Assembly: GCF_000379465.1 (NCBI RefSeq)
Contig: NZ_KB905381.1
Location: 1 to 64,000 of the forward strand
Source of the DNA: Sciscionella marina DSM 45152
Lineage (GTDB): Bacteria > Actinomycetota > Actinomycetes > Mycobacteriales > Pseudonocardiaceae
Direction: 5' to 3'
DNA: 64,000 bases
Part shown: positions 22,675 through 49,445 of the stretch, piece by piece
Layout: each line of letters opens with the position of its first letter
Numbering within the stretch: position 1 is the stretch's first letter
Translations under genes and position numbers: made by a program
Notes under the pieces: model-generated
Seen by the model: the letters and a program-made list of their open reading frames with translations, nothing else
What the model was told of the DNA's origin: nothing
Database searches by the model: none

Positions 22675-24141
22675 TTACGCTATGGAGCCCGCGCGCCGGC
22701 CGAACACGATTCCGGCGGCCAGGCCGGATCCACCGGGGTAGTTCCCGCTGAACAGACCGCCGAGAGCTTCGCCGCAGACCAGCAATCCGTCGATGGATGA
22801 TCCGTTCTCGCGCAGCACGCGGCCGGAAAGGTCGCCTTTCAGTCCGCCGAAGGTGAACGTGATGCCGCAGGTGACGGGATAGGCGTAGAAGGGTGGTGTC
22901 TCGATCGGTGCCGCCCAGTTGGATTTCGGCGGGTCGACTTCGGCACGACGGCCGTCCTTGACGGTCGGATCGAACGGACGGTCCCGCTCGATCGAGCGAT
23001 TGAAGGCCTCGACGGTTTTCGTGAACCGGTCCACGTCGATACCCAGCCGGTCACCGAGCTCGGGAACCGAATCCGCGGTGATCTCACTGATGCCGGGCAT
23101 ATCGTATTCCTCGGTGCGCAAGCTCGGCCGGAGCTCGGCGTCGAAGATCTGATACGCCACGTTCCCGGGCTGGGCCAGGATCTCGCGCCCGTATTTCGCG
23201 TAGGTGTAGTTGCGGAAGTCGGCTCCTTCGTCCAGGAAACGGTTCCCTGCGCGGTTGACGATGATGCCAAGCGGATAACTCTGTCTCGTCAGCCGGTTTG
23301 TCAGGGCGCGATTGGACTCGTTGCAGGCGGTGAACGCATCCCATTGGACGCTGTGCGCGGTGGACCAGTCACCACCGTGGGCGGCTCCGAGCTCGAGGGC
23401 GGCCAGGAGCATCGTGCCGTCGTTGTGCGGAGTCCCGCGGAGTTTCGCGTTGGCCCAGCCCGCGCCGAGGTGGCGTTCGCGCATTCGTGGGTTTGCCTCG
23501 AAACCTCCGGAGGCGATCACGACGGTGTCCGCGTACAGCTCGTGTTCCTCGCCGTCGGCGAGGTAACCGACACCGAAGACGGCATCTCCGTCGGTCAGCA
23601 ACCGGGTGACCGTGGCGCCGTGGCGGATCTCCTCGCCATACCGGCCGGCCACGGCGAAGTGATCGGCAATGAGTCCTTCGCCACCGCCGACATTGCCGAT
23701 AGGCAATCCACCCCAGAACAGGTATGAGCCATCGGGCCGGGCATAGGACTGGCGTTCGTACATGAGCCGGTAGCGCAGGCCGAGCTCGTGCAGCCAGCGC
23801 ACGCCATCGGTGGCCTCGGTGACCAGGACATCCGCCATGGCCGGGTCCGTACGTCCTTCGGTCACCCGCGCGAGATCGGCCCGGTATTCCTCGGCGCTGT
23901 AGGGCGGGACGACGGTACGCGCATGCCGCTCGTCGGGTTCGACGATGGCGCGGAGCTCGTCGAGGCCGCGGTGTGCGATCCGGGTCGCGCCCGCCGTGAA
24001 ATAGGAGTTTCCGCCCGCGTACTGCGGTTCACCGCGCTCGAGCACGACTACTCGGCGTCCGCGTTCGGCCGCCGCGTGCGCTGCGCAGAACCCGGCATTG
24101 CCACCGCCGATGACGATGACCTCGGTACTGGTACCGGACAT
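22675..24141 (-). CDS. FAD-dependent dehydrogenase, tricarballylate dehydrogenase (TcuA)-like
   Basis: 488 residues. Flavoprotein of the fumarate-reductase/FAD_binding_2 family: VIVIGGGNAGFCAAHAAAERG at the N-terminus, GGNSYFTAGATRI, the catalytic-domain segment and the C-terminal GGLFSGNYPGGSGLAAGIVFGR that closes on FAD. Overall pattern is closest to TcuA/CobZ-type tricarballylate dehydrogenases and 3-ketosteroid-dehydrogenase-like enzymes. Start at 24141 is set by AAAGGAG; the frame runs open far upstream but that part overlaps the asparaginase gene in another frame. Third gene of the IclR minus-strand unit. It likely oxidises a carboxylic acid in the same pathway as the divergent operon. 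Confidence 0.85.
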   Translation of the reverse strand: MSGTSTEVIVIGGGNAGFCAAHAAAERGRRVVVLERGEPQYAGGNSYFTAGATRIAHRGLDELRAIVEPDERHARTVVPPYSAEEYRADLARVTEGRTDPAMADVLVTEATDGVRWLHELGLRYRLMYERQSYARPDGSYLFWGGLPIGNVGGGEGLIADHFAVAGRYGEEIRHGATVTRLLTDGDAVFGVGYLADGEEHELYADTVVIASGGFEANPRMRERHLGAGWANAKLRGTPHNDGTMLLAALELGAAHGGDWSTAHSVQWDAFTACNESNRALTNRLTRQSYPLGIIVNRAGNRFLDEGADFRNYTYAKYGREILAQPGNVAYQIFDAELRPSLRTEEYDMPGISEITADSVPELGDRLGIDVDRFTKTVEAFNRSIERDRPFDPTVKDGRRAEVDPPKSNWAAPIETPPFYAYPVTCGITFTFGGLKGDLSGRVLRENGSSIDGLLVCGEALGGLFSGNYPGGSGLAAGIVFGRRAGSIA

Positions 24142-24190: not shown

Positions 24191-25171
24191 TCAGGGGCGC
24201 CGGTCGGGGAACAGCTCGCGCGCGGGAATCCCGGCGGAAAGCCCGAACAGGAGCCGCAGACGTGCTTTCGGCGCGGAGAGCAGGCCGGCGAAATACAGTC
24301 CCGCGCGGCGCAGGTCGGTCTCGGATCCCGCGCCGTCGTAGGTGTGCCGCAGGAGTGCGGCATCCGGGCACCGGCTGGTGACCACGACGGGTTTGCCCGA
24401 GTCCGCGAGGCGGACGAGTGCCGTACCGAGGGCGGGGGAGACGTGTCCGGCGCCGAGGGCCGCCACCACGACAGCGTCCACATCGGACGCGATCGAGTCC
24501 ACTGTGGAGCCGTCGACCCCGGTAGCCGCGTGCACGAGGCCGACCCGGGCGCTGGGTGGGCCGGAGCGAGGGAGGAGATCGGTTCCCGGTGGGGGACCGA
24601 GCAACAGCTCCAGCCGATCCTCGGCGACGAAGCCGACCGGTCCGGCGGCCGGTGAACCGAACGCCGCGACCCGGGTGCTGTGCATTTTGGTGACGAGCTT
24701 CGCGACGTGCACCTCGTCCTGGAAAACGACGACCGGCCCGTACGATGCCAGCCTCGGGTCGGCCGCGGCCACCAGGGCCGCGTGGAGGTTGGCCGGACCA
24801 TCGGGCCCGGCCAGATGTGGTGATCGCATGGCACCGGTGACCACGACAGGGGCCGTTGTCTCGACGAGCAGGCCGAGCGCGTAGACGGTTTCCTCGAGGG
24901 TGTCCGTACCATGGGTGAGCACAACGCCATCGCGGTCCGCGGACATCTCGTCGCCGACCGCGGCCGCGAGGGTCCACAGGTCGCCGGGGGTCATCCGCCG
25001 CGAGGACAGGCCGAGTGCGTCCCGCGGGAAAACCTCGATCCCTGCTGGACGGTCGCTTCGTGCCAGCGTCAATGCTTCCACGCCGCGGTGCTGTTGTTCT
25101 TCGGCCGATGGCGGAGCCACGGAGATGGTGCCGCCGGTGGCGATCAGGCCGATCGATCGTCGGGTGGTCAT
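24191..25171 (-). CDS. Type-I L-asparaginase family protein
   Basis: 326 residues. Both asparaginase threonine motifs are present: GLIATGGTISVA (first nucleophile Thr) and GVVLTHGTDTLEETVYAL (second Thr-Asp pair), followed by VVVTGAMRSPHLAGPDGP. These enzymes hydrolyse the side-chain amide of asparagine or related amides, giving aspartate and ammonia. The start at 25171 shares one base with the IclR stop (TGATG). In this locus it would feed the same aspartate pool that a dihydroorotase-carbamoylase route would produce. Confidence 0.88.
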   Translation of the reverse strand: MTTRRSIGLIATGGTISVAPPSAEEQQHRGVEALTLARSDRPAGIEVFPRDALGLSSRRMTPGDLWTLAAAVGDEMSADRDGVVLTHGTDTLEETVYALGLLVETTAPVVVTGAMRSPHLAGPDGPANLHAALVAAADPRLASYGPVVVFQDEVHVAKLVTKMHSTRVAAFGSPAAGPVGFVAEDRLELLLGPPPGTDLLPRSGPPSARVGLVHAATGVDGSTVDSIASDVDAVVVAALGAGHVSPALGTALVRLADSGKPVVVTSRCPDAALLRHTYDGAGSETDLRRAGLYFAGLLSAPKARLRLLFGLSAGIPARELFPDRRP

Positions 25172-25950
25172 CAGGACGTGGGCCCGGGGCAGCCGAGTTC
25201 GGCCGACATCCGCTCGGCGGCGCGTTGTGCCGCCTCGGTCATCCGCACCCGGACATCGGGATCCGCGACCCGCGAACCAGGGGCGGTGATGGTGACGCTG
25301 GAGAGGACTCGATCGTCGCCGTCGCGGATCGGTACCGATACCGCCCAGGCGTCCGGGTCGAGTTCGTTGTCGCACACCGCGTAGCCCTTGTCCCGGACCT
25401 CCTTGAGCAGGTGCATGACATCGTCGACGTGGTGCGGAGTTCCATCGGTGTACTCGGTCAGCTCGACCCCTTCGAGCAAGGCACGGACGATGTTCTCATC
25501 GAGATAGGCCAGGATCGCCCGGCTCGACGCCGCGGCATGCAGTGGCATTTCCTGTCCGATGCGCACGAACAGTCGCAGCGCGTGCTCCGCCTCCACGATC
25601 GAGACACAGACCGGGACATCGCCGATGAATTCGGTGAGGAAGACGGTCTCACCGGTCTCGTCGGCGGCGTCGACGAGGGCCGCGGGCGGTTTCACCAGCC
25701 GGGCGCTGTGTGATCCGGTGCCGCCGGTGAGCCCGCGCGCCGCCCGCCCGATGAAGTATCGCTTCGTGACCGGGGACCGCCGGAGGTAGTCGACCTGGCC
25801 GAGTGTGGTGAGGATGCGATGCAGGCTGCCGAGGGGGATGTCGAGTTCGTCGTGCAGCTCCTGCAGCGTCAGCCCGGAACGTGCGGCGCCGACCGCGTTG
25901 AGGACCTCCACGGTGCGGACGATGACCTCGAGGGGGCGTGCGGCACTCAT
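25171..25950 (-). CDS. IclR-family transcriptional regulator
   Basis: 259 residues. Winged helix with RTVEVLNAVGAARSGLTLQEL and IPLGSLHRILTTLGQVDYLRR, then the GAF-like IclR effector domain (LHAAASSRAILAYLDE, DNELDPDAWAVSVPI, VTITAPGSRV). First gene of a minus-strand unit with asparaginase and the TcuA-like flavoprotein, divergent from the ornithine-cyclodeaminase operon at 26174. A near-consensus IclR box lies in the intergenic region, so it should control both directions. Confidence 0.93.
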   Translation of the reverse strand: MSAARPLEVIVRTVEVLNAVGAARSGLTLQELHDELDIPLGSLHRILTTLGQVDYLRRSPVTKRYFIGRAARGLTGGTGSHSARLVKPPAALVDAADETGETVFLTEFIGDVPVCVSIVEAEHALRLFVRIGQEMPLHAAASSRAILAYLDENIVRALLEGVELTEYTDGTPHHVDDVMHLLKEVRDKGYAVCDNELDPDAWAVSVPIRDGDDRVLSSVTITAPGSRVADPDVRVRMTEAAQRAAERMSAELGCPGPTS

Positions 25951-26101
25951 CGGCTGAGTCTCCTCCCGTGATGTTTTCGCTCTGTGCGCGGCCTCGTGAC
26001 GCCATTGCCGCCTGCCGCCGGCACTTCGGCCGAGATTCTAGGCGACCTCCGGTGTGGGTTGACAACGCAGCGAGCGATCGGCCAGGCTCAGTCTATCGAA
26101 G

Positions 26102-26117
26102 TGGAAAGCAGTTTCCA
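26102..26117. promoter_or_regulatory. IclR-type operator
   Basis: TGGAAAGCAGTTTCCA is a perfect inverted repeat (TGGAAA, 4-bp spacer, TTTCCA), matching the general IclR-family box TGGAAA-N3-5-TTTCCA known from IclR and AllR. It lies 57 bp before the plus-strand operon start and 152 bp from the IclR start. A TTGACA sits 38 bp upstream (26059-26064), so binding here would block the plus-strand promoter. Confidence 0.75.
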
Positions 26118-26173: not shown

Positions 26174-27190
26174 ATGCCGCGGGTCTTGGACGACCAGCAC
26201 ATCGACGGGCTGCTGCCGCCCGAGGCAGCGCTCGCGGATGTGCGCACGGCGTTCGAGCTGCTGGCGGCGGGCGAGGCGTGGGATGAACCCCGGCGGCGCA
26301 GCGGCGTGGGACGGGTGAGGCTCAACATCATGTCGGCGATCGCGCCTGCGCTCGACACCATCGTGGTGAAGTCCTATCCCGTGGTGCGCGCGGAAAGTAA
26401 TCGCGCGAGCGTCATCACCGTGCTGGTCTATTCCTGCGCATCGGGCGAACTGCGCGGACTGGTCGGGGCGGACCTGCTCGGTCAGCGGCGGACCGCGGCG
26501 GCCTCGGCGCTCGCGACCGAGGTGCTGGCCCGTCCGGACAGCGCCACGGTGTGCTTGCTGGGGACGGGATTTCAGGCGCCGGCCCAGATCACGGCGCTGG
26601 CCGGGGTGCTGCCGAAACTGCGGACGGTGCTGGTCGTCGGCAGAGACCCGGACCGTGCCTCGCGTACGGCCGCCGCCCTGCGCGAGGCACATCCCTGGTT
26701 GGACGTGGAGCCAGGGATCAGCGCGGAACACGCGGTACCGCGCGCGGATGTCGTCGTCACCGCGACGGGGGCCGCCGAGCCGCTGTTCGACGGTGGACTC
26801 CTGCGTGCCGGTACGCACGTCAACGCCGTGGGCAGCAATCATGCCGCGCGCCGGGAGCTCGACCGGACGAGCTTCCACCGGGCGGCGCACGTCAGCGTCG
26901 ATTCGGCTGCCGTAGCCGCGCTGGAGTGCGGTGATCTCTTGGCCAACGACCTGGATCCGGGCGAGGCGAGCGAATTCTCCGCGGTGCTCACCGGTTCCGT
27001 GCCGGGAAGGGTCGATGGCGACGACATCACCGTTTTCGAGTCGCACGGCCTTGCCATCCAGGATCTGGTCTGCGCGGCCGGAGTGCTCGACCGCGCGCAG
27101 AAGGCCGGGATCGGCACGGTCATCGATCTGGGAACGGACCCGGTCGCGCGTGAGCACGAGCCGGATCGAAGTCAGAGGAGAGACATATGA
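26174..27190 (+). CDS. Ornithine cyclodeaminase / mu-crystallin family protein
   Basis: 338 residues. OCD/mu-crystallin fold: MSAIAPALDTIVVKSYPVV, GELRGLVGADLLGQRRTAAASALA (substrate-binding Arg and Thr), the NAD-binding GTGFQAPAQITAL, and VVVTATGAAEPLF. Family members deaminate ornithine, reduce imino acids (ketimine reductase, alanine dehydrogenase) or synthesise diaminopropionate. The NAD motif is GTGFQA rather than the usual GxGxQA of the canonical enzyme, still acceptable. First gene of the plus-strand operon to 34837; its stop overlaps the next start (ATGA). Likely acts on the amino- or imino-acid product of the pathway. Confidence 0.87.
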   Translation: MPRVLDDQHIDGLLPPEAALADVRTAFELLAAGEAWDEPRRRSGVGRVRLNIMSAIAPALDTIVVKSYPVVRAESNRASVITVLVYSCASGELRGLVGADLLGQRRTAAASALATEVLARPDSATVCLLGTGFQAPAQITALAGVLPKLRTVLVVGRDPDRASRTAAALREAHPWLDVEPGISAEHAVPRADVVVTATGAAEPLFDGGLLRAGTHVNAVGSNHAARRELDRTSFHRAAHVSVDSAAVAALECGDLLANDLDPGEASEFSAVLTGSVPGRVDGDDITVFESHGLAIQDLVCAAGVLDRAQKAGIGTVIDLGTDPVAREHEPDRSQRRDI

Positions 27191-28605
27191 GGTTGCACAT
27201 CACCAACGGCCGGCTCGTCACCCCGGCGGGCCTTCTGGACAGCGATCTGCTCTGCACGGACGGGACCATCACGGCGATCCTGGACCGGGGTGCACGGGTC
27301 GACGCCGACGAACAGTACGACGCCGCGGGGAAACTCGTGTTCCCCGGATTCATCGATCCGCACGTGCATTCCCGCGAACCCGGAAACAGCCACAAGGAAG
27401 ATTTCGACCACTCGACCCGGGGTGCCCTCGTCGGCGGCGTCACCACCGTGCTGGAAATGCCCAACGCGATCCCGCCGGTCGAGTCGGCCGAGGTCTTCGA
27501 ACAGCGCCGCCGCGAGCACGAACGGTCGGCGTGGACGGACTTCGGCCTGTGGGGCCTGGCTCTCGGGGACACCAATCTCGACCAGATCGGGCCGATGTTC
27601 GAGGCGGGTGCGGTCGCGGTCAAGCTGTTCTGGGGATACGCGCTGCACCGCGAGACCCGTTCGCTGGTGTACAACCTCGGTGACGAGCCGCCGGAGAACC
27701 TGTTGATGCCACCGCCGAACGGGCAGGTGCTGCAGCTGTTCTCCGAGGTCGCCAAGCACGGCGGTGTGCTCGCGGCGCACTGCGAGGACAAGGATGTCCT
27801 CGCGACGAGCCAGGAAAACCTCGGCCACCCGATCCAGACCTACGAGGATCTGCTCGCTGCCCGGCCCGCGGTCGCGGAGGCCACGACCATCTCGATCGCG
27901 GCTCAGTTCGCGAAGGCAACCGGATGCCGTTTCCACGTGGTGCACCTCGCCTCGGAAACCGGTCTCGACGCCGTGCGCACCGCGCAGCGCAACGGGATCA
28001 CCGTCAGCGCGGAAACCTGTCCGCAGTACCTGACACTGACCGATGCCGACTACCCGAAGGTCGGCCCGGTGATGAAGGTGTACCCGCCGGTGCGTGAACA
28101 GCGGGACCAGGACGCGCTGTGGGCCGGTTTCAACGAGGGCGCCATCTCCTCGGTCGGATCGGACCACGCGCCGCACACCGTGGAGGAAAAGGCACGCGGG
28201 TTCGAGACGCAGCCCGCGGGGGCGGTCGGCTGCGAGACCTTCGGGCCGGTCTTGCTGGACGCGCTGGCACGCGGCAGGACCACGGCGATGCGGCTCGCCG
28301 AGGTCGCCGCCACGCAGACCGCGAAGTTCTACGGCCTCTATCCCCGCAAGGGCGTGATCCGCCCCGGCAGCGATGCCGACCTCGTCATCGTCGATCCCCA
28401 GCTGCGCCGGACCGTCCGCAACGAGGAGCTGATCGCCAAGCAGCCGGTCAGCCCGTGGAACGGTGTCGAGCTGTGCGGTGGTCCGGTCGCGACGGTACTG
28501 CGCGGCGAGGTCGTCGTCCGCGATCGCGAGATCGTCGGTGAGCGCCGGGGCCGGTTCGTCCGCGCCGAGCATCGCGCGGGCGATACCGGTCGGTTGAGCG
28601 CATGA
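27187..28605 (+). CDS. Dihydroorotase-like cyclic amidohydrolase
   Basis: 472 residues. Binuclear-metal cyclic amidase: FIDPHVHSREPG (HxH ligands plus an Arg two residues on), GAVAVKLFWGY with the Lys expected to be carbamylated, AAHCEDKDVL, RFHVVHLAS, and SVGSDHAPHT with the catalytic Asp. In dihydroorotases the Arg of HxHxR binds the substrate carboxylate; allantoinases have Asn there and dihydropyrimidinases lack it. This, plus the SDHAPH signature, argues for a carboxylated substrate such as dihydroorotate. Length is that of the dihydropyrimidinase/allantoinase group. Co-transcribed with PyrDB/PyrK-type genes, it would open dihydroorotate to N-carbamoyl-aspartate. Confidence 0.88.
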   Translation: MRLHITNGRLVTPAGLLDSDLLCTDGTITAILDRGARVDADEQYDAAGKLVFPGFIDPHVHSREPGNSHKEDFDHSTRGALVGGVTTVLEMPNAIPPVESAEVFEQRRREHERSAWTDFGLWGLALGDTNLDQIGPMFEAGAVAVKLFWGYALHRETRSLVYNLGDEPPENLLMPPPNGQVLQLFSEVAKHGGVLAAHCEDKDVLATSQENLGHPIQTYEDLLAARPAVAEATTISIAAQFAKATGCRFHVVHLASETGLDAVRTAQRNGITVSAETCPQYLTLTDADYPKVGPVMKVYPPVREQRDQDALWAGFNEGAISSVGSDHAPHTVEEKARGFETQPAGAVGCETFGPVLLDALARGRTTAMRLAEVAATQTAKFYGLYPRKGVIRPGSDADLVIVDPQLRRTVRNEELIAKQPVSPWNGVELCGGPVATVLRGEVVVRDREIVGERRGRFVRAEHRAGDTGRLSA

Positions 28606-29939
28606 GTTCTCTCGAGGAGCTGACCTCGGCGGTACACGAGGCGATCGGCCAGGCCGGGGCGCTCACGGCCGGAACACTCGGCGAGCCGGTGCTCCGGCAC
28701 GCGGCGCACGTGATCGCCGACTCCGTCGGGGTGAGCATCGCGGGCGGGCGCACCGCCGAGATGGCGAAGCTGCGCGCCGCCGAGGACGGATCCGGGGCCG
28801 CACCCGGTGGTCACGGATCCACGGTGTGGGCCGCAGGGGCGGGCCTCGCGCCCGCGGAGCAGGCCGCGTTCCACAACGCCTCGGCGGGAAGTTTCCTCGA
28901 GCTGGACGAGGGAACGCGTCCGACCGGGCATCCCGGAATGCACATCGTGCCCGCGGCCCTCGCCGTGGCCGAGGCGGAGCACCGGTCCGGTCGCGAACTG
29001 CTGGACGCGGTAGTGGCCGGGTACGAGGTCAGTGCACGGCTGCTCACCGCGTTCCGGCTGCGTCCTCCGACACACCCGCACGGCCATCTCGCCGGGATCG
29101 GGGCCGCGGTGAGCGTGGCGCTGCTGCTCGGCGAGGACCCGGTGGAAGCCGCGGCGATCGCGGCGACGACACCCGTCGTTCCGGTGTGGAACGCCTGCTA
29201 CGTGGGCGCGACCGCACGCAATACCGCGATGGGGATGGCCGCCCAGACCGCCGTGCGGGCGAACCGGTTGGTGCGCGCGGGATTCACCGGATCGCTGGAA
29301 TCGATTCCCGCGCTCTTCGGGGAACTGACGGGGCAACCGGTCGATGTCGGTGCACTGACCGCGCCACCGGATCCGGTGCGGCCGCGGATCATGCGGAACT
29401 ACTTCAAACGCCACAGTGCCTGCGCGCTGACCCACGGTGCGGTCGATGCGGTGCTGTCGCTGCCCGCGGTGCCCGTCGCGGACATCAGCGCCGTGGAGGT
29501 CCGCACCGTCGCCAACAACCTCAAGCTCGACCGCGAGCCGTTCCCGAACGACCTCTCCGCGCGGTTCTCCTTGCCCTACGCCGTATCGGCGGCGCTGACG
29601 CGGCGCGTGTCGACGGTCGGGACCTTCGACTACGACGCCGGTGTGGCCCGGCTGGCCGAGAAGGTCCGAGTCGAGGTCGACCCCGAGTTCGAGGATCGTT
29701 GGCCGGAGCACGCACCGGTCGAGGTCGCCGTGCACACTCCGGAGCGGACGCTGTCCGCGCTCGTCGAGGATCCACGCGGGCATCATCATGATCCGCTCTC
29801 GGCCCAGGAACTGCGGGACAAGTTCACCGGTCTCGTGGGGGTGGGCGCCGATGCGCTGTGGGACGGGATCCTCGCGCTGCCCGGCGCCGGTGACTGCGCC
29901 ACTGTGCTCGATCCGCTGCGTCATCCATCCGCCACCTAG
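28602..29939 (+). CDS. MmgE/PrpD family protein
   Basis: 445 residues. MmgE/PrpD fold with HNASAGSFLELDEGTRPTGHP (the active-site Asp-x-x-x motif is altered to LELDEGTR), GRELLDAVVAGYEVSARL, and KRHSACALTHGAVDAVL in the lid domain. It is only distantly like the copy at 18527. Possible reactions are dehydration, epimerisation or decarboxylation of a di- or tricarboxylate or imino acid. Overlaps the dihydroorotase-like stop by 4 bp (ATGA). In a route that ends in aspartate or iminosuccinate, an iminodisuccinate-epimerase-like role is conceivable, but this is speculation. Confidence 0.85.
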   Translation: MSSLEELTSAVHEAIGQAGALTAGTLGEPVLRHAAHVIADSVGVSIAGGRTAEMAKLRAAEDGSGAAPGGHGSTVWAAGAGLAPAEQAAFHNASAGSFLELDEGTRPTGHPGMHIVPAALAVAEAEHRSGRELLDAVVAGYEVSARLLTAFRLRPPTHPHGHLAGIGAAVSVALLLGEDPVEAAAIAATTPVVPVWNACYVGATARNTAMGMAAQTAVRANRLVRAGFTGSLESIPALFGELTGQPVDVGALTAPPDPVRPRIMRNYFKRHSACALTHGAVDAVLSLPAVPVADISAVEVRTVANNLKLDREPFPNDLSARFSLPYAVSAALTRRVSTVGTFDYDAGVARLAEKVRVEVDPEFEDRWPEHAPVEVAVHTPERTLSALVEDPRGHHHDPLSAQELRDKFTGLVGVGADALWDGILALPGAGDCATVLDPLRHPSAT

Positions 29940-29976
29940 CCGGTCCGATCCGGGATACGAAACAGGTCTCCCTTTG

Positions 29977-30951
29977 ATGACGACATCAATCGCCGACGCT
30001 CCCCGGGAGCACGGTGCGCCGGGTCCCGCGGCCCCATGGGTCGATACGCGGGTCGAACTCGGTGGCCTCACACTGGCGAACCCGGTGATGCCCGCCTCGG
30101 GTTGCTTCGGTCCGGAACTGGCCGACCTGCTGCCCGTCGAGACGCTCGGTGCTGTCGTCACCAAGACGGTGTTCGCCAGCGCCCGTCCGGGGAACGCGAC
30201 ACACCGGATCACCGAAGTGCCGAACGGCATGCTCAACAGTGTCGGAATCCCGAGCCGGGGGGTGGCGGAATTCCGCCGGTCGGGACTGGGGGGATACGCG
30301 GCCCTCGATGCGCCGGTGGTGATCAGCATCGGTGGACTATCCACACAGGAGTATTGGCGAGTCGCCGAAGAGCTGGCCGATACCGAGCACGCCGCTTTCG
30401 AAATCAACGTGTCCTGCCCCAATCTCGAACGAGGTGGCCAGACACTCGACACCGATCCGCGCGCGATGAGCGAGGTCGTCGCCGGTGTGGTCGCCCGCAG
30501 CGCGAAACCGGTACTGGTCAAACTGAGCCCGCAGCTCCAGACGATCGGCGAAGCCGCGAAGACCGCGGAGGATGCCGGTGCCACCGCCGTCACGGTGTGC
30601 AACAGCTTTCCCGGCATGGCGGTGAATCCGGATCGCCGAACCTCCGAGCTGGGCAACGGGATGGGCGGCGTTTCCGGGCCTGTGGTCAAGCCCCTCGCGC
30701 TGCGGCTCGTCTGGCTTGCCGCGCAGGCAGCCGGTATTCCCGTCGTCGGCTGCGGTGGTATCCGCGCGGCGAGCGACGTCGCGGAGTTCCTCCTCGCCGG
30801 TGCCACGGCGGTGCAGATCGGAACCGCCAACTTCGCCCAGCCGTACGTGATGGCCAAGGTCGTCGAGGAACTGCCCGCGATGGCGCGGCGGCTCGGTGTG
30901 GACAGGATCTCGGATCTCATCGGAACACTCACCATCCGAGCGGAGGACTAG
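29977..30951 (+). CDS. pyrD: Dihydroorotate dehydrogenase, class 1B (PyrDB) type
   Basis: 324 residues. FMN-binding TIM barrel with ANPVMPASGCFG, the class 1 catalytic Cys in EINVSCPNLERGG (class 2 enzymes have Ser), VLVKLSPQ, VTVCNSFPGMAVN, GMGGVSGPVVKPLALR, and GCGGIRAASDVAEFLLAGA. The last two are PyrDB hallmarks. Class 1B enzymes pair with PyrK to exchange electrons with NAD. A PyrK gene lies three genes downstream at 34019. Actinobacteria generally make pyrimidines with membrane-bound class 2 PyrD, so a class 1B pair inside an IclR-controlled operon with hydrolases suggests catabolic reduction of orotate or a similar pyrimidine, not biosynthesis. Confidence 0.9.
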   Translation: MTTSIADAPREHGAPGPAAPWVDTRVELGGLTLANPVMPASGCFGPELADLLPVETLGAVVTKTVFASARPGNATHRITEVPNGMLNSVGIPSRGVAEFRRSGLGGYAALDAPVVISIGGLSTQEYWRVAEELADTEHAAFEINVSCPNLERGGQTLDTDPRAMSEVVAGVVARSAKPVLVKLSPQLQTIGEAAKTAEDAGATAVTVCNSFPGMAVNPDRRTSELGNGMGGVSGPVVKPLALRLVWLAAQAAGIPVVGCGGIRAASDVAEFLLAGATAVQIGTANFAQPYVMAKVVEELPAMARRLGVDRISDLIGTLTIRAED

Positions 30952-30953
30952 CA

Positions 30954-32252
30954 ATGAGCAACGACGACGATGTCGATGCGGGAAGTACCCAAATGGCCGG
31001 AGACGACTCGCGGGCGACCGGCACGGCCGAACCCGAGGAGGTCACCTCGTACGGGCGCAAGGCGGTGTTCGGCGCCACGATCGGGTATGCCATGGACGGT
31101 TATGATCTCCAGATCCTCGGGTTCGCGTTGCCCGCGATCACGGTGAGCCTCGGCCTGTCCGACACCCAGGGAGGTTCGCTCGCGACGATCACCCTGATCG
31201 GCGCGGTCACCGGCGCGATGTTCTTCGGCGCCCTTGCCGACCGCTTCGGTCGCGTCCGCATCCTGACCTACTCGATCCTGTTGTTCGCGATCTTCACCGG
31301 CCTTACCGCGCTCTCCCAGGGATTCGCCGAGATGGCAGTGTTCCGCTTCATCGCGGGCGCCGGTATCGGCGGTGAATTCGGTATCGGCATGGCGCTGGCG
31401 GCGGAGGCGTTTCCGACGATCAAGCGGACCAGGGCCACCTCCGTGGTCGGTGTCGGTTTTCAGTTCGGTGTACTGCTCGCCTCGGTCATCTCCGCTCCGG
31501 TGATCGCCTTGTGGGGCTGGCAGGGACTGTTCGTCATCGGTGTCATCCCGGCGATCGTCGCCATCGTGCTGCGGTTGCGGCTGCCCGAACCGGAAGCCTT
31601 CGTGCGGCACCGGCGTGTGTCCAATGCGGCGGAGAAACGGGAGAACCCGTACCGTTTGCTGGTCGCCGACGCCAAAACCGTACGCACCAGTATCGGTATC
31701 ATCATCATCTGTTCGGTACAGAACTTCGGCTACTACGGAATTCTTACCTGGCTTCCCACCTATCTGAGCAAGCAGCTCGGGTTGAGCATGACCAATTCCG
31801 GAATCTGGACCGCGGTCACGGTGATCGGAATGATATCCGGAGTGATGATCTTCGGGCAGATCTCCGACCGGATCGGCAGGCGTCGCTCGTTCTGGATTTT
31901 TCAGGCGGGCGCGTTCATCTCGCTTCTCGTGTACAGCCAGCTCACCTCATCGGCAGCCGTCCTGGTCGGTGGTGCTGTCATGGGGATCTTCGCGAACGGC
32001 ATGCTCGGTGGTTACGGCGCGATCATCGCGGACAATTACCCGACGGCGGCGCGGGCCACGGCGCAGAACGTGCTGTTCGGCATCGGGCGCGGGGTGGGCG
32101 GGTTCGCTCCGCTGGTCGTGGCGCTGATCGCGAGCTGGCAGGGATTCGGCGCCGCGCTGGGTTTTCTCGCGCTGATCTACATCGTCGACATGGTAGCCAT
32201 GTTCCTCATTCCCGACCGGCGTGGCAGGCGGCTCGAGGAGCCGATGAAATAA
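30954..32252 (+). CDS. MFS transporter, aromatic-acid:H+ symporter (AAHS)-like
   Basis: 432 residues, 12 membrane helices. TIGYAMDGYDLQILGFALP in helix 1 (the D-G-x-D motif typical of acid symporters), GALADRFGRVRILT (motif A) and GAGIGGEFGIGMALAAEAFP in helix 4. Start at 30954 is set by GGAGG, two bases after the dehydrogenase stop. Transporters of this branch import benzoate-type and other organic acids with protons; here an orotate-like acid is the obvious candidate from context. Confidence 0.9.
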   Translation: MSNDDDVDAGSTQMAGDDSRATGTAEPEEVTSYGRKAVFGATIGYAMDGYDLQILGFALPAITVSLGLSDTQGGSLATITLIGAVTGAMFFGALADRFGRVRILTYSILLFAIFTGLTALSQGFAEMAVFRFIAGAGIGGEFGIGMALAAEAFPTIKRTRATSVVGVGFQFGVLLASVISAPVIALWGWQGLFVIGVIPAIVAIVLRLRLPEPEAFVRHRRVSNAAEKRENPYRLLVADAKTVRTSIGIIIICSVQNFGYYGILTWLPTYLSKQLGLSMTNSGIWTAVTVIGMISGVMIFGQISDRIGRRRSFWIFQAGAFISLLVYSQLTSSAAVLVGGAVMGIFANGMLGGYGAIIADNYPTAARATAQNVLFGIGRGVGGFAPLVVALIASWQGFGAALGFLALIYIVDMVAMFLIPDRRGRRLEEPMK

Positions 32253-32295
32253 CGGATTTCCCGACGTTCAAGCCACAGTGTGAAAGCGAGGAATC

Positions 32296-32772
32296 GTGTC
32301 GAATACAATCACTCTCGCGGCAGCGTTTCGTACGCTCGGTGTCGCCGCGGATACTTACGGCCCGACGATCAACACCGCTCGGTCACCGGGGGACGTCGAT
32401 GTGCTCGCCCGTGCGCTTGCGGAGTTGACGAGGGATTCGGGCCCGGAAGTGCTGGTGGTCTGGAATACCTGCGATGAGGCGGTGCTCGCCAACGCCGTCG
32501 CGTTTCATCTCGGTGCGACCGTGAGCCGTGCCTCGGAAGCGGAAGGCGTTCTCACGTTCAACGAACCGATCGGTCAAGGCGCACATGTCGTGGCGGTGGC
32601 CACGCAGTGGAGTGACCGTCGGCTGGAGGTGTTGCGCCGCTTGGTTTCCGGTAATGGCGGCCGGCTCGTCGCGGTGGCCGCGGTACTCGCCTCGGACGCG
32701 CAAGCGGCCGTCACCGATCTGACGACGACCGCTCTCCTCTCGGAACACGAAGCGAAGGGGCGCACGCAGTGA
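32296..32772 (+). CDS. Phosphoribosyltransferase-like protein lacking the PRPP loop
   Basis: 158 residues from a GTG at 32296. The order of elements follows a type I phosphoribosyltransferase: TYGPTINTARSPGDVDVLAR, LVVWNTCDEAVLANAVAFHLG, VSRASEAEGVLTF, then GAHVVAVATQWSDRRLEVLR and GGRLVAVAAVLAS. The strand GAHVVAVATQWSD occupies the place of the PRPP-binding DDVxTTG loop but has none of its acidic or Thr residues, so it should not bind PRPP normally. The start codon region overlaps no gene; its stop overlaps the carboxy-terminal neighbour's GTG (GTGA). Encoded between the importer and the carbamoylase. Either a pseudoenzyme sensor of orotate-like ligands or a new activity. Fold assignment is by eye. 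Confidence 0.6.
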   Translation: MSNTITLAAAFRTLGVAADTYGPTINTARSPGDVDVLARALAELTRDSGPEVLVVWNTCDEAVLANAVAFHLGATVSRASEAEGVLTFNEPIGQGAHVVAVATQWSDRRLEVLRRLVSGNGGRLVAVAAVLASDAQAAVTDLTTTALLSEHEAKGRTQ

Positions 32773-34022
32773 CCGATCTCATCGCCGACCAAGAGCGCCT
32801 GCGTCAACTGATCGATGTTTTCGCGCAGTTGTCCGAACCCGAGAGTGGTCCAGGTGTCACGCGGCTCGCGTACACGCCACTTGAACGAGACGCGCACGAG
32901 ATTTTCGCGGAACGGATGTCCGCGCTGGGGCTGACGGTGTGGGCCGATGCCGCGGGCAACACCCTCGCGGAACGTCCCGGTGCCGATCCGGCGCTGCACG
33001 CCATCGGCACCGGTTCGCATCTGGACAGTGTGCCGAACGCCGGAGCCTTCGACGGGATCGTCGGGGTGTGTGCGGCGATGGAGGCGGCGCGGTTGTTCGT
33101 CGAGCACGATGTCCTCCATCGTCACCCGTTGCGGTTCGTGGTGTTCGCTGCGGAGGAGGGCGCGCGCTTCGGGCAGGCATGCACCGGAAGCCGGATCGCC
33201 GCCGGACTCACCGGTGCGAGCGAGCTACCCGCGAAGCGCGACGCGGACGGGATCAGTCTCGCGGAGGCCATGACCGGGGTCGGGCTCGATCCGGCCGCCG
33301 TGGCCGGGGCGCGGTGGCGGCCGGAGGATTGGGCCGCGTTCATCGAACTGCACATCGAGCAGGGCAGTGTGCTCGAGACGAACGGTGTGCGCCTGGGAGT
33401 CGTCGATTCGATCTCCGGTAGCACGCGACTTCTCCTCGAACTCAGCGGTCGTGCGACACACAGCGGTGGGACCCCGATGCACTTGCGCGCGGACGCGATG
33501 ACCGCGGCCGCGGAGGTGGTGCTGGCCATCGAGTCGCTGGCCGGTGCGGACAACGTCGGCACCCGGACGACCGTCGGCAAGATCGAGGCGGAGCCGGGTT
33601 CGATCACGACCATCGCGGGGCACGTGCGGTTGTGGGTCGATGTGCGCGGTACCGATGCCCAGCGTCAGCGGAACACCACGCGGGAGATCGTTCGGCGGGC
33701 GGCGAATATCTGCGCGGGCCGCGGGATCGGATTCGAACACGAACAGCTCGCGGACACGCCGCCGGTCCGGCTGCCGGACGGTATCCGGGACGAGCTCGCT
33801 GCCTGCTGCCGGGCCGGCGGTATCGAGCCGTGCATCATGACCAGCGGTGCCAGTCATGATGCGCAGCAGATCAACAATGTCACGCCGAGCGGGATGCTGT
33901 TCGTGCCGAGCAAAGCGGGAATCAGCCACGACCCGGCGGAATGGACGAGTATCGAGGACGTCGCCCTGGGAACGAATGCGCTGAGCGCAGGTCTGCTCCG
34001 GTTGGACGAGGGCCTGTCATGA
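32769..34022 (+). CDS. M20-family N-carbamoyl-amino-acid hydrolase / allantoate amidohydrolase type
   Basis: 417 residues. Zinc-dependent carbamoylase: IGTGSHLDSVPNAGAFDG (first His and bridging Asp), FAAEEGARFGQACTGSR (Glu pair), FIELHIEQGSVLE (His), the dimerisation domain with ATHSGGTPM, and TSGASHDAQQIN (last His). The family splits N-carbamoyl-L-amino acids, beta-ureidopropionate or allantoate into amine, CO2 and ammonia. In this operon it would convert N-carbamoyl-aspartate to aspartate. GTG start overlaps the preceding stop (GTGA) and its stop overlaps the PyrK start (ATGA). Confidence 0.92.
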   Translation: MTDLIADQERLRQLIDVFAQLSEPESGPGVTRLAYTPLERDAHEIFAERMSALGLTVWADAAGNTLAERPGADPALHAIGTGSHLDSVPNAGAFDGIVGVCAAMEAARLFVEHDVLHRHPLRFVVFAAEEGARFGQACTGSRIAAGLTGASELPAKRDADGISLAEAMTGVGLDPAAVAGARWRPEDWAAFIELHIEQGSVLETNGVRLGVVDSISGSTRLLLELSGRATHSGGTPMHLRADAMTAAAEVVLAIESLAGADNVGTRTTVGKIEAEPGSITTIAGHVRLWVDVRGTDAQRQRNTTREIVRRAANICAGRGIGFEHEQLADTPPVRLPDGIRDELAACCRAGGIEPCIMTSGASHDAQQINNVTPSGMLFVPSKAGISHDPAEWTSIEDVALGTNALSAGLLRLDEGLS

Positions 34023-34837
34023 GCTCCCCGGCAACGCTGGGTGTGCTCGCCGGTGAGCGCCCGATGCCGACCTGGGCACGAACGCAGGTGCTGGTCAATC
34101 GCCCACTGACGGACCGTTATCGGCTACTCCGGTTCCGCAGCGCGACCATCGCCGCGCGGGCCGAGGCGGGACAGTTCGTGATGCTCAGTCCGGCGACGGA
34201 GTCCGGACCGGTCCTCCCGCGGCCGATGGCGATCTATACGCGTGATGCCGGCAGTGGATCCGTGGACATCGTCTACGGCGTCGTCGGTAGCGGAACGAAG
34301 GCGCTGGCCGCCCTCGAACCCGGCGCGACCGTCGTGGTCACCGGGCCGCTGGGGCGAGGCTTCGTGGTCCACGAGGAGACCGGGCACGTCCTGCTCATCG
34401 GTCGCGGGGTGGGAATCTGCGCGATGACCACCGTCGCGCAGGATCTCGCGGGAACCGGGGTCCGGGTGTCGGCGGTGCTCAGCGGCAGGCACGAATCCGC
34501 GATCATCGGTGCGGAGGTTTTCCGCGGCTGCCACGGCGATGTCCGGCTGGCCACTGACGCCGATGAGACCAGCGGGGTCGCCGTGCTGCGCGAACGACTG
34601 CACCGGGGGTTCGACGGCGATCCGCCGCAGCAGATCCTCACCAGCGGATCGGCGCGATTGACCCGGATGTCCGGGGAACTCGCCGCTCGCTGGCACGCGA
34701 CCGTACAGGTCTCGATCGAGGCGCACATGGCCTGTGGTCTCGGCTACTGCCATGGCTGTGCGGCCGGTGACGGAGACGGAACGCACGAGGCTCCGCTGGT
34801 CTGCCGCGACGGACCGGTCTTCCGGCTCCGGGGATGA
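34019..34837 (+). CDS. pyrK: Dihydroorotate dehydrogenase electron-transfer subunit (PyrK)
   Basis: 272 residues. Ferredoxin-reductase-type module: FAD-binding strand with LPRPMAIYTRD (the RPxSI-like motif), GSGTKALAALEPGATV, NAD-binding VLLIGRGVGICAMT, and a C-terminal [2Fe-2S] site CGLGYCHGC with C-x4-C-x2-C followed 14 residues later by a fourth Cys in LVCRDGPVF. This is exactly the PyrK arrangement. PyrK passes electrons between NAD(H) and the FMN of the class 1B dehydrogenase. It lies three genes away from that partner, separated by the importer, PRTase-like and carbamoylase genes, which is unusual because pyrK and pyrD are normally adjacent. Confidence 0.9.
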   Translation: MSSPATLGVLAGERPMPTWARTQVLVNRPLTDRYRLLRFRSATIAARAEAGQFVMLSPATESGPVLPRPMAIYTRDAGSGSVDIVYGVVGSGTKALAALEPGATVVVTGPLGRGFVVHEETGHVLLIGRGVGICAMTTVAQDLAGTGVRVSAVLSGRHESAIIGAEVFRGCHGDVRLATDADETSGVAVLRERLHRGFDGDPPQQILTSGSARLTRMSGELAARWHATVQVSIEAHMACGLGYCHGCAAGDGDGTHEAPLVCRDGPVFRLRG

Positions 34838-35557: not shown

Positions 35558-38302
35558 GTGCCCGAGCGGTTCTTCGGACTGTGGAATCGGCTGATCGCTT
35601 CGGATCCCGGACTCGGGCGGCTCCGGATGGCGGGTGGCTCGGCGGTCAGCATGGCCAGCGCGCTCGCGGTGGAGTACGGGTTCGCCGTGCTGATCGGCGC
35701 CGACGCCAAGCTCACGCTGGTCGTGATGCTGCTCGGCGCGATGGTCGCGATGCTGGGGGCACAGGCGCTCGGCGGGACCGGGGTGTGGCCGAAGGTGCGC
35801 ACCGCATTGTTTTTCCCCGTCGCGCTCGGTGCCGGTATGTCCGTCGGTGTCCTGGTCTCGTGGAACATCGATCTGATGCTCGGCGTGTTCGTGGTCGTCA
35901 TGTTCATCGCGGTGTTCATCCGCAAGTTCGGCATCCCGTATTTCTTCTACGGGTTCATGGGATGGATGGGGTATTTCTTCTCCTCGTTCCTGCACGCCAC
36001 CTTCGAGATGCTGCCGATGTTGCTGATCGCGATCGCCATCGGCACGGTCTGGGTCGTCCTGCTCTCGACCACGGTGCTGCGGGAGAATCCGGCTCGCACG
36101 CTGGACCGGGCCGTGCGGTCGTTCGATGCCCGGGCCCGGGCGACGGCGCAGGCGGTGTCCGCGCTGCTCGCCGATCGAGAGCCGGACGAGGTGAGGCAGG
36201 CCAGGGCGTGGCGGCGCATTCAGCGCGGTCACACGAATCTGGCTGAGATCGCCTTGATGATCGAAGCGGTATCCGGTGAGCCGGGGGCCTTGCCGCCAGG
36301 CGATTCGGCGGCGGTGTTGCGCCGGAAATTGGTGGAGGCGCAGCAGGCGGTCGACCGGATGGCCACCGCGGCCAAGGCGCTGGGCGGTGCCGAGTCATCG
36401 GTGCGCCTGCTGGCGGCGCGGGTGGCCGACCGGTTGGCCCGCCAGGACGACCAGGATGCCCGGCAGGCGGCCCAGCAGCTTACCGGGCTCAGCGAACCCG
36501 GGGATGCCGGTGGAACGGAACCGGGAACCGAGAGCTGGTGGGCCGCCCGGCATTTCGCCGCCGCGGTGCTCGAGTTCGTGGCACTGGCCGCGGACCGGGA
36601 GACGCTGGCGCGCCGGGATGAGGCGGAACACCAGGAGTTCGAACCGGTTGTGGGACTGGTGATGGGCAACCTGCCGGGCTCGGCGGCGGCCGCGGGTGGG
36701 GTACACGCGCGCGGCCACCGGTGGAATCCGCTGGCCAGGATGGCGATGTCCACCCGGCAGGCCGTGCAGGTGGCGATCGCGGGCGGGTTGGCGATCCTCG
36801 CCGGCCGCGAACTCTCGGAGAGCCGCTACTACTGGGCGGTCCTCGCCGCGTTCCTGATGTTCGCCGGGACGGCCACTCGTAGCGAACAGTTCATCAAGGG
36901 GTGGAACCGGGTACTCGGAACGCTGGTCGGGCTCGGCGTCTCCATCGGGTTCGCGGAACTGACGGCGGGCCAGCCGATCTGGTCGATCGTGGTCATCGTC
37001 TGCTCGATGTTCTGCGGTTTCTATCTGTTGCGGTTCTCGTACGCCTATATGATCTTCTTCCTGACGATCATGCTCGGTCAGCTCTACAGTGTGCTGCACG
37101 AATTCTCGCCCGGATTCCTGTTGCTCCGGCTGGAGGAGACCGCGATCGGGGCGGGGATCGGGTTCCTGGTTGCGCTGATCGTGATGCCGCTGTCCACACG
37201 GGACACGTTCCGATCGGCCCGGGATATGTTCCTGAACCAGCTCGGCGCGCTGTTGTACGCCACGGCGAACCGGCTCGATCCGGTCGGTGCCCCGGACGAC
37301 ACCGATCTCGCCGCCGCGTCCAGGACGCTCGACGACCGTATGCGCCAGCTCAGCCTGGTGGCGAAACCCATGACGCGGCCGTTGCTGTGGAACAACAGTC
37401 CGCGCCGCGTCCGGCACCGCCTCTCGCTGTACGCCAGTATCGCCAGCTCCACCCGAGTGCTGGCCGTCGCGTTCCAGGGCGGACGGGCGCACCGTCAGCA
37501 GGGACTCGCCGCAGCCTGCCGAGCGCTGGCCACGGCCGCCGAGGAACTCACCAGGGTTCGCATCGGCCGTGATCAGCCGAGTGCCTCTGCGCCGCTGATC
37601 GCCGCCGAGGTGGCACTGTTCGAGCGGACGGTTGCCGCGCCGGAAACCCGAGCCAGCGATCCGATTCTGCGCACGCTCACCCACGTGCACCAATCGCTGC
37701 GCGAGCTGTCCACGCCGAGCGAGGCGATGCTCGTGGAGACTCGGCTCGGCAACACCGTGGTCGGCCAGGTCACCGGTGACGACGGTGCACCAGCGGCGGC
37801 CAGGGTCACCCTGCTCCGGCTCTCCGGGGAGGAGTTCGCCTACACCGAAACCAATCCGGTGACCGGCTACTACCGCTTCTCCGACTGCCCGGCAGGCCAA
37901 TACCTCACCGCGGTCACCGGCGGCGGACGGGGTGCGGTGGCCGGACGGGTACGTATCCGGGACGGGGCACCCACTGCCGCCGACTTCGTGCTGTGGAAGC
38001 GAAAGATGCGTGCCTGCATGCGCGGCACGATCCGGGACCCGTACGGGAACCCGCACCCGGACGCGGGTGTCACCGTGTTCGCGCCGGACGGTGTGCTGCT
38101 CAGGCAAACCCGCACCGACCGGAACGGCAGCTACGAGCTCGACCTCGACCCGGGCAGTTACAACGTCATCGCCACCGGATACGGCACTACGACCAGGAAA
38201 ACCTGGCTCACCGCAGGACCGGCCAATCAACTCGATCTCCGGCTGCCGACCGTGGACCACGACGGCCGAAGCCGAAGTGACCACAGCAGTATGCCCGGCT
38301 GA
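35558..38302 (+). CDS. FUSC-type membrane protein with C-terminal carboxypeptidase-regulatory-like domains
   Basis: 914 residues from a GTG at 35558 with GGAAGGA upstream. Two hydrophobic blocks (about residues 25-165 and 400-545) each with five to six helices, separated by a helical soluble region, match the FUSC / aromatic-acid-exporter (AaeB, YccS) architecture; RYYWAVLAAFLMFAGTATRSEQF-type sequence (split here: SRYYWAVLAAF, TATRSEQF) marks the second block. Unusually, residues 735-905 contain two beta-sandwich repeats (VVGQVTGDDGAPAAAR, GYYRFSDCPAGQY; then CMRGTIRDPYGNPHPDAGV, GSYELDLDPGSY), typical of CarboxypepD_reg domains. Probably an efflux or envelope-stress pump controlled by the divergent MarR. 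Confidence 0.85.
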   Translation: MPERFFGLWNRLIASDPGLGRLRMAGGSAVSMASALAVEYGFAVLIGADAKLTLVVMLLGAMVAMLGAQALGGTGVWPKVRTALFFPVALGAGMSVGVLVSWNIDLMLGVFVVVMFIAVFIRKFGIPYFFYGFMGWMGYFFSSFLHATFEMLPMLLIAIAIGTVWVVLLSTTVLRENPARTLDRAVRSFDARARATAQAVSALLADREPDEVRQARAWRRIQRGHTNLAEIALMIEAVSGEPGALPPGDSAAVLRRKLVEAQQAVDRMATAAKALGGAESSVRLLAARVADRLARQDDQDARQAAQQLTGLSEPGDAGGTEPGTESWWAARHFAAAVLEFVALAADRETLARRDEAEHQEFEPVVGLVMGNLPGSAAAAGGVHARGHRWNPLARMAMSTRQAVQVAIAGGLAILAGRELSESRYYWAVLAAFLMFAGTATRSEQFIKGWNRVLGTLVGLGVSIGFAELTAGQPIWSIVVIVCSMFCGFYLLRFSYAYMIFFLTIMLGQLYSVLHEFSPGFLLLRLEETAIGAGIGFLVALIVMPLSTRDTFRSARDMFLNQLGALLYATANRLDPVGAPDDTDLAAASRTLDDRMRQLSLVAKPMTRPLLWNNSPRRVRHRLSLYASIASSTRVLAVAFQGGRAHRQQGLAAACRALATAAEELTRVRIGRDQPSASAPLIAAEVALFERTVAAPETRASDPILRTLTHVHQSLRELSTPSEAMLVETRLGNTVVGQVTGDDGAPAAARVTLLRLSGEEFAYTETNPVTGYYRFSDCPAGQYLTAVTGGGRGAVAGRVRIRDGAPTAADFVLWKRKMRACMRGTIRDPYGNPHPDAGVTVFAPDGVLLRQTRTDRNGSYELDLDPGSYNVIATGYGTTTRKTWLTAGPANQLDLRLPTVDHDGRSRSDHSSMPG

Positions 38303-40552: not shown

Positions 40553-40601
40553 GGCTTTCTTGTCCACCGCTTTCCCTGAGGCGGAAACCGAAGGTGGAAA
40601 C

Positions 40602-41897: not shown

Positions 41898-42020
41898 GGA
41901 GAAGACACCAGTGACCATCCTGGCCCGAGCGATGGGCCCGCACTGTCCGAACAGAAATCGCGCATCCACGCGAGTCGGGGCGATATTTCCCGCGACCGGC
42001 CAACAAGGTGAGGAGAACGG

Positions 42021-47015: not shown

Positions 47016-47035
47016 TACATCCGAGAAGGAGTGTC

Positions 47036-48466: not shown

Positions 48467-48633
48467 TCGGGCTTCGCTACACCACAATTGTCGGCGCCCC
48501 CGTCTCGATCGAGGGTGGGTCGGTAACGGGTTCGGTGGTTTCGACTCCGGGCCGTTCGTTGCTACGTCGGATGATGAAGATGGTTCGTTTGAGGATGGCG
48601 GTTTCTTCTTGGCGGCCACCGGAATCGGTGATC

Positions 48634-49070: not shown

Positions 49071-49154
49071 CCGTGTCGCTGCTGTTCTCGCGGGACGCAG
49101 ACCGGCGTGTTCGACCGCCGCGCGCGGGCTGCCGATCGGCTCAGGTCCCGGGTT

Positions 49155-49404: not shown

Positions 49405-49445
49405 GGTGGTTCGCCCCTCATGTCCGACGCTGTCATCATTGGGTT

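Follow-up and report, generated by a model that had tools for sequence, protein, structure and literature searches.

A tightly packed operon in the actinobacterium Sciscionella marina DSM 45152 very probably encodes a pathway of orotate catabolism, its reactions and their direction, its transport substrate, its regulation and its inducer all being predicted from sequence. The operon occupies positions 26174–34837 of the window, the 64,000-nucleotide stretch at the start of contig NZ_KB905381.1 analysed here, and adjacent genes either share a few bases or are separated by fewer than 50. They specify, in order, an OCD-family dehydrogenase, a cyclic amidase, an MmgE/PrpD protein, PyrDB, an MFS importer, a 158-aa protein, an M20 carbamoylase and PyrK; genes for an IclR-family regulator, an asparaginase and a TcuA-like flavoprotein diverge from them (Table 1). 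Every component named in the original prediction was found: PyrDB, PyrK, a cyclic amidase with the HxHxR motif, an M20 carbamoylase, an acid importer and an IclR box. Three genes of the operon, those for the OCD, MmgE/PrpD and PRTase-fold proteins, had gone without mention there.

Table 1. Features of the operon and its divergent neighbours (positions in the window)
Feature	Position	Strand	Basis
TcuA-like FAD flavoprotein of the tricarballylate dehydrogenase family; start at the N terminus not fixed	22675..24120	-	NF006130 521.6 bits, cut-off 369
Asparaginase-family protein, start not fixed	24191..25231	-	PF00710 and PF17763 above cut-off
IclR-family regulator, divergent from operon	25171..25950	-	PF01614 and PF09339 above cut-off
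Promoter-like TTGACA-N18-CAGGCT, putative	26059..26088	+	intergenic sequence read by eye
Candidate IclR-type operator TGGAAA-GCAG-TTTCCA	26102..26117	+	pattern match
OCD/mu-crystallin family protein	26174..27190	+	PF02423
Cyclic amidase, allantoinase/hydantoinase-like, predicted dihydroorotase	27187..28605	+	pyrC_multi 291.5 bits, cut-off 279.05
MmgE/PrpD family protein	28602..29939	+	PDB relatives: cis-aconitate decarboxylase, iminodisuccinate epimerase
PyrDB, class 1B dihydroorotate dehydrogenase catalytic subunit, GIPS type	29977..30951	+	PRK07259 308.8 bits, cut-off 269
MFS protein, predicted orotate importer	30954..32252	+	PF07690; TIGR00895 310.9 bits, under cut-off 418.55
PRTase-fold protein without PRPP loop (pseudo-phosphoribosyltransferase, perhaps orotate-binding)	32296..32772	+	158 aa
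M20 N-carbamoyl-amino-acid hydrolase, predicted ureidosuccinase	32769..34022	+	hydantase TIGR01879 384.3 bits, cut-off 204; NF006771 above cut-off
PyrK, FAD/2Fe-2S/NADH electron-transfer subunit	34019..34837	+	PF10418 39.4 bits, cut-off 23.9

In the proposed pathway the MFS protein would bring orotate into the cell, where PyrDB and PyrK would reduce it with NADH to L-dihydroorotate, the opposite of the biosynthetic direction. The cyclic amidase would hydrolyse dihydroorotate to N-carbamoyl-L-aspartate, from which the M20 enzyme would release L-aspartate, CO2 and NH3, and the OCD-family enzyme may deaminate aspartate towards oxaloacetate. Reductive degradation of orotate by an NAD-linked dehydrogenase, via dihydroorotate, carbamoylaspartate and aspartate, is known from the anaerobes Clostridium/Zymobacterium oroticum, and bacterial growth on orotate was the subject of biochemical studies in the 1950s–60s. 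The reactions predicted for the window are the same and likewise involve an NAD-linked dehydrogenase; here, in contrast, the genes form a cluster found in actinobacteria and on proteobacterial plasmids, PrpD, OCD and the pseudo-PRTase are added, and control by IclR is predicted. The route from orotate to aspartate originally claimed is supported by the separate pyr genes of this genome, by conserved residues and by the recurrence of the cluster.

A pyrR-pyrB-pyrC-carA-carB-pyrF cluster and a class 2 pyrD, the genes whose presence was to be checked, are both located elsewhere in the same genome, and the operon is therefore unlikely to be the biosynthetic route; it does not hold the only pyrD and dihydroorotase genes, the situation that the original prediction had equated with a biosynthetic role. 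Its statement that no other pyr genes lie nearby agrees with the genome searches for the DHO_dh and dihydroorotase families, whose matches within the window are operon genes only.

By homology, residues and partnership, PyrDB and PyrK constitute a class 1B pair for which NADH:orotate reduction is predicted. PyrDB scores just under the cut-off of the subfamily model TIGR01037 (265.5 against 270), and its orotate-binding positions (K, N, NxSCPN and N[ST]) are conserved in the alignment; we take the Cys of SCPN to be catalytic and the Lys and Asn to bind orotate. PyrK matches PDB 1ep1_B with E 5e-22, its 2Fe-2S-site cysteines aligning to those of the solved protein. The pair thus shares both subunits, active-site motifs and 2Fe-2S cysteines with L. 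lactis PyrDB-PyrK (1ep1–1ep3), and departs from it in its substrate loop, which reads MLNSVGIPS (GIPS) where the comparison-set PyrDBs are GLQN-like, in its separate tree group and in its location outside a pyr biosynthesis cluster. In the tree, 22 of 23 GIPS rows fall on the same side of a branch with support of 97/92, and support for one group drops to 77/65 when L060 is included with the remaining GIPS rows. The window PyrDB groups with PyrDBs from M20-linked loci. Function is not uniform across this tree group, since it also contains the Paroceanicella PyrDB, with an altered orotate-binding Asn and no M20 gene nearby.

The amidase carries the motifs HVHSREPG and MPNAIPP. It thereby retains both the HxHxR Arg and the MPN Asn found in type I dihydroorotases, where these residues presumably bind the carboxylate. 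Its best score is to the allantoinase model TIGR03178 (323.6 bits, under the cut-off of 357.85), it stays below the cut-off of dihydropyrimidinase TIGR02033 (273.5 against 393.25), and it reaches no dihydroorotase equivalog cut-off among the best 25 models. For the M20 protein, which was aligned to N-carbamoylase 3n5f, specificity for carbamoylaspartate is predicted from family membership. The nearest model of the MFS protein is that of an aromatic-acid/H+ symporter (TIGR00895). Relatives with 48–61% identity occur in nine of the 17 M20-linked clusters devoid of an allantoinase-like amidase (L007, L008, L056–L059, L061, L066 and L069), which argues for one transported substrate; none is present within the other eight of these simple clusters.

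The 158-aa protein has the type I PRTase fold, which cannot distinguish OPRT from APRT. We take a loop motif with an acidic pair to be the mark of PRPP binding; this loop is missing, the corresponding position reading VATQWSDRRL (alignment A2). The protein has no Pfam match, and in both respects it is unlike orotate phosphoribosyltransferase (PyrE). Profile comparison of its family with proteobacterial OPRTs alone gave a weak result (probability 8.7); the related PRT204 family gave 95.4. PRTase/OPRT-like genes accompany 16 of 22 M20-linked clusters, with a short fragment match in L069, which fits orotate as the ligand.

The IclR box that had been claimed is present in front of the operon as the sole match to GGAAA-N2-6-TTTCC in the window; a search for inverted repeats with arms of 8 overlooked it and a direct pattern search found it. 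IclR would repress the operon at this site, and a pathway compound would release it. The palindrome is identical in three of 12 other loci scanned (L005, L006 and L071), which have the same gene order as the window, and the pattern is absent from L007, L008, L072–L074 and L082–L085. By eye, a sequence similar to the promoter-like one can be recognized in the intergenic regions of the same three relatives.

The core of the operon recurs elsewhere, and the soil relatives Prauserella alba and Saccharopolyspora ipomoeae share the operon itself. In a set of 24 GIPS-type loci, in which plasmid loci were picked by hand and the window substitutes for the short L002, PyrK, PyrDB and an M20 relative occur together in 22. 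No M20 gene was found near 32 biosynthetic-type comparison loci, a weak negative given flanks of only ~1.5 kb; the label of these loci is itself inferred, an adjacent dihydroorotase match being present in five. The dihydroorotase slot is filled variously by PyrC of the E. coli type, a dihydroorotase of type I or an allantoinase-like amidase. The first adjoins M20 in four plasmid clusters (two of Variovorax, one each of Klebsiella and Cupriavidus), the second occurs in four actinobacterial loci, a P. putida cluster has a gene annotated as dihydroorotase whose subfamily is unsure, and eight of the 22 M20-linked loci have no dihydroorotase gene within the flank. The pairing in other clusters of PyrDB/K of the same group, often together with an importer orthologous to that of the window, with PyrC or a type I dihydroorotase supports the orotate reading.

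The OCD, PrpD, TcuA and asparaginase genes are superfluous to the proposed orotate route and were counted against the catabolic reading. Family membership makes the OCD protein a probable NAD(P)-dependent enzyme, either an imine reductase or an amino acid dehydrogenase, and its substrate could possibly be aspartate/iminosuccinate: iminosuccinate reductase 6rqa ranks fifth among its PDB relatives (E 2.3e-24). It meets no curated cut-off as ornithine cyclodeaminase, BhcD or EutC (BhcD iminosuccinate reductase, 125.3 bits against 500). The MmgE/PrpD protein finds no support as a methylcitrate dehydratase (23.9 bits against 950) or as a cis-aconitate decarboxylase. The animal active site of the latter presumably comprises Asp93, Thr97, His103, His159, Lys207, Lys272 and His277; the window protein keeps the equivalents of His103, His159 and Lys272 in the alignment and differs at four of the seven (Asp93 to Glu, Thr97 to Gly, Lys207 to Arg, His277 to Cys). 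A fumarate reductase role for the TcuA-like protein is not supported, its C-terminal motif opposite NRLGG reading NYPGG. Its gene also occurs in L071 (82%) and L074 (53%), with a 115-aa match at the edge of L006 and none in L005; the asparaginase gene is shared with L005, L006 and L071 and partially matched at the edge of L074.

These genes lend some weight to a reading that we consider distinctly unlikely, in which PyrDB/K, amidase, PrpD and M20 degrade a carboxylated cyclic ureide other than orotate itself, such as a substituted orotate or carboxymethyl-hydantoin. In four genomes (L082–L085), loci of 19 kb combine the amidase with PrpD, M20 and a PRTase-like gene but lack PyrDB/K, and in three of them the whole genome gives no match to PyrDB at 1e-8. 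The module presumably has another use there, since PyrDB/K is missing nearby or genome-wide, and the amidase may act on other substrates. In L083, the only one of the four scanned for other genes, it is accompanied by genes for a deaminase-type amidohydrolase, a DUF1028 protein, an Opp-type importer and an isoaspartyl-dipeptidase-like protein (277 bits, under the cut-off of 331). PrpD tracks with this amidase in all five extended-type loci and in L082–L085, whereas no PrpD gene was seen next to a dihydroorotase of type I or type II in the loci compared; the distant L074 retains OCD, TcuA and an asparaginase fragment. Against this stand the conserved orotate-binding positions of PyrDB and the closeness of PyrDB/K and, in nine clusters, of the MFS protein to those found beside an ordinary PyrC or type I dihydroorotase. 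Separately, L068, which has no dihydroorotase, encodes a distant PrpD relative (26.5%).

The original prediction had offered as its alternative a reductive uracil/thymine pathway with PyrDB/K in place of dihydropyrimidine dehydrogenase (DPD). The partners of that pathway are indeed a cyclic amidase and a carbamoylase, and the dihydropyrimidine dehydrogenase/dihydropyrimidinase/ureidopropionase route has the same logic of reduction, ring opening and decarbamoylation, with enzymes of the amidohydrolase and M20 superfamilies. The DPD/PreA motif is Asn-Ile-Glu; a DPD-type motif is absent from the PyrDB alignment, where the loop is MLNSVGIPS. Unlike those of that route, the window dehydrogenase and amidase have carboxylate-binding residues, and PyrDB has PyrK as a partner. 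The loop, the dihydroorotase Arg and Asn of the amidase and a distinct dihydropyrimidinase gene in another part of the genome (577.4 bits against a cut-off of 393.25) make this alternative highly improbable. Many bacteria use class 1B enzymes for biosynthesis, but a second, NADH-linked biosynthesis set, for instance for low oxygen, is scarcely credible at all in view of the pyr cluster elsewhere, the grouping of PyrDB with M20-linked PyrDBs, the lack of a carbamoyltransferase recognized by profile scans of the operon and a carbamoylase that would destroy the intermediate.

Among the matches listed, no description of a catabolic orotate gene cluster was found in the open literature. The uncharacterized DHODH/DPD relatives X1 and X2 branch near PreA/PydA, X1 lying beside cyclic amidase and M20 genes (PMC4016543); the window proteins differ in having PyrK and class 1B residues, and the accessible part of that paper describes no orotate cluster. 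Orotic acid in another actinobacterium is treated, in the available portion of the source, in the context of biosynthesis (PMC10143877). New here are the PRTase-fold protein lacking the PRPP loop and the IclR box conserved in three relatives.

The orotate-catabolic reading admits a wider scenario, which we put forward as speculative and on balance doubtful: a widespread pathway of orotate use, carried in part on plasmids, that has a PyrDB group to itself, has drawn its dihydroorotase from three or more subfamilies and employs the PRTase-fold protein as orotate sensor or carrier. To this the window lineage would add a PrpD protein that epimerizes an N-substituted aspartate, much as iminodisuccinate epimerase does, and an OCD-type aspartate/iminosuccinate dehydrogenase. 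The cluster supplies testable candidate genes for an old biochemical pathway, and its core turns up in unrelated lineages, frequently on plasmids. Genes annotated there as PyrDB/PyrK, PyrC and PyrE probably encode catabolic or regulatory rather than biosynthetic proteins, and the GIPS versus GLQN-like loop motif may tell catabolic from biosynthetic PyrDB.

The eight plus-strand genes of the operon form an unbroken run: each adjacent pair either shares a few bases or is separated by fewer than 50. Reading both strands of the window and assigning the products to families recovered all five proteins named in the original prediction, together with the IclR box. Further downstream, positions 35558-38302 encode a FUSC-type membrane protein with carboxypeptidase-regulatory-like domains in its C-terminal part. 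Inspection of the ORF list by eye points to more catabolic-looking genes at 40560-53551: MFS, FAD oxidoreductase, CoA transferase, enoyl-CoA hydratase, DapA-like, aldehyde dehydrogenase, LeuC-like and isocitrate-lyase-like genes.

Features of the operon and its divergent neighbours
Feature	Position	Strand	Basis
TcuA-like flavoprotein, divergent	22675-24120	-	family assignment
Asparaginase-family gene, divergent	24191-25231	-	family assignment
IclR, divergent	25171-25950	-	family assignment
Palindrome TGGAAA-GCAG-TTTCCA	26102-26117		pattern search
OCD/mu-crystallin family	26174-27190	+	family assignment
Cyclic amidase	27187-28605	+	family assignment
MmgE/PrpD	28602-29939	+	family assignment
PyrDB	29977-30951	+	family assignment
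MFS importer	30954-32252	+	family assignment
158-aa protein without Pfam match	32296-32772	+	
M20 carbamoylase	32769-34022	+	family assignment
PyrK	34019-34837	+	family assignment

A biosynthetic role had been allowed for in case the operon held the only pyrD and dihydroorotase genes of the genome, which it does not. Family searches located a stronger second PyrD on contig C13, the quinone-dependent class 2 enzyme, and a stronger dihydroorotase on C68, in a locus of pyrR, pyrB, pyrC, carA, carB and pyrF that all exceed their curated cut-offs. A dihydropyrimidinase gene also lies outside the operon. Judged by this gene content, the predicted role of the operon is not biosynthetic. The same genome carries a third, divergent class 1 PyrD-like gene (L003:1378-2415), above the Pfam DHO_dh cut-off and below the NCBIfam cut-offs among the models listed.

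In alignment, the window PyrDB retains the Lys, the Asn of MLN, and the N-V-SCPN and N-S positions, which bind orotate in known enzymes. In the amidase, as in dihydroorotases, both the HxHxR Arg and the MPN Asn are retained, and the amidase also has a Lys that may be carbamylated.

The window PyrK was used as query against 397 genomes of the order, 396 of the phylum and 72,556 plasmids. Matches at 1e-20 occur in nine genomes of the order, its own included, the five strongest belonging to its own family; in the phylum 184 genomes match at 1e-18, the listed non-self matches being 25-41% identical. Among the plasmids, 83 records match PyrK at 1e-15 and 90 match PyrDB at 1e-30. Fifteen plasmid regions hand-picked for comparison, plus further loci, gave 24 distinct loci with a PyrDB bearing the GIPS substrate loop (L026 and L070 being second copies). 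A relative of the window's M20 lies nearby in 22 of them, the window standing in for the short locus L002. All 22 of these PyrDBs read N[SA][VI]GIPS; comparison PyrDBs have GL[QAE]N (30 of 32) or GLQG (two). In a midpoint-rooted tree of 52 PyrDB rows, 22 of the 23 GIPS rows, including one from Paroceanicella that is not M20-linked, share one side of a branch (support 97/92), the exception being a long-branched Roseovarius sequence. As the GIPS labels were set by motif, the independent evidence is the tree and not the label count.

The M20-linked loci differ in their dihydroorotase. An allantoinase-like amidase is present in five (window, L005, L006, L071, L074), a type I dihydroorotase in four (L007, L008, L072, L073) and an E. 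coli-type PyrC in four (L057, L058, L066, L069); Pseudomonas putida (L061) has an annotated dihydroorotase about equidistant from type I and the window's amidase, and no dihydroorotase was found within the flanks of eight (L056, L059, L062-L065, L067, L068). Relatives of the MFS importer (48-61% identity) occur in nine of the 17 clusters lacking the allantoinase-like amidase (L007, L008, L056-L059, L061, L066, L069), and TRAP transporter genes in four of the other eight. This pattern, a single type of importer and of dehydrogenase paired with dihydroorotases of several types, is the one expected of an orotate pathway.

A Klebsiella grimontii plasmid (L058:7329-13098) carries genes for MFS, PyrK, PyrDB, M20 and PyrC. 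Its PyrK-to-PyrC stretch recurs at >=99% identity in 53 of the 72,556 plasmid records, all Klebsiella and several from milk or urine, with no match among the E. coli records searched. The two GIPS loci without a window-type M20 are Paroceanicella (L055:8941-12051) and Roseovarius (L060:9016-11815, with a different M20-family gene). Their PyrK/PyrDB pairs lie amid xanthine-dehydrogenase-type genes and an asparaginase, substrate residues including the orotate-binding Asn are changed in alignment, and the substrate is perhaps another heterocycle.

The palindrome is the sole match to GGAAA-N2-6-TTTCC in the window, and a TTGACA-N18-CAGGCT element lies immediately upstream. The same scan of 12 other loci found the box in three, Prauserella alba (L005), Saccharopolyspora ipomoeae (L006) and L071 of the same family, each time between IclR and OCD and, by eye, with a similar upstream element; it was not found in the distant L074 or in loci lacking OCD. 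IclR would bind at this box.

Conversion of orotate to aspartate requires none of PrpD, OCD, asparaginase or TcuA. PrpD accompanies the allantoinase-like amidase in all five loci and in four further genomes (L082-L085), clustered there with M20, an amidase about 63% identical and PRT204, a PRTase-like family related to that of the 158-aa protein. The 19 kb read per locus contain no PyrDB or PyrK match; genome-wide at 1e-8, PyrDB has no match in three of the four and only a 29% match in the fourth. L083, the one scanned for other genes, has a deaminase-type amidohydrolase, DUF1028, an isoaspartyl-dipeptidase-like gene and Opp-type importer genes. The amidase module thus has an independent existence, and the window operon may accept more than orotate. 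Retention of the extended set in L074, in a different order, argues that the extra genes belong to the pathway; several there, namely amidase, M20 and OCD, are split between frames, perhaps through assembly errors.

No description of a catabolic orotate gene cluster was found in the open full-text literature, covered by titles, starts of abstracts and, for broad topics, the best-ranked papers; most subscription papers lie outside it, and an earlier description is possible. An anaerobic orotate pathway is known. The orotate interpretation is well supported by sequence comparison, its reactions, direction and induction being predictions. The operon would be a new form of an already known type of pathway and offers a clear set of assays.
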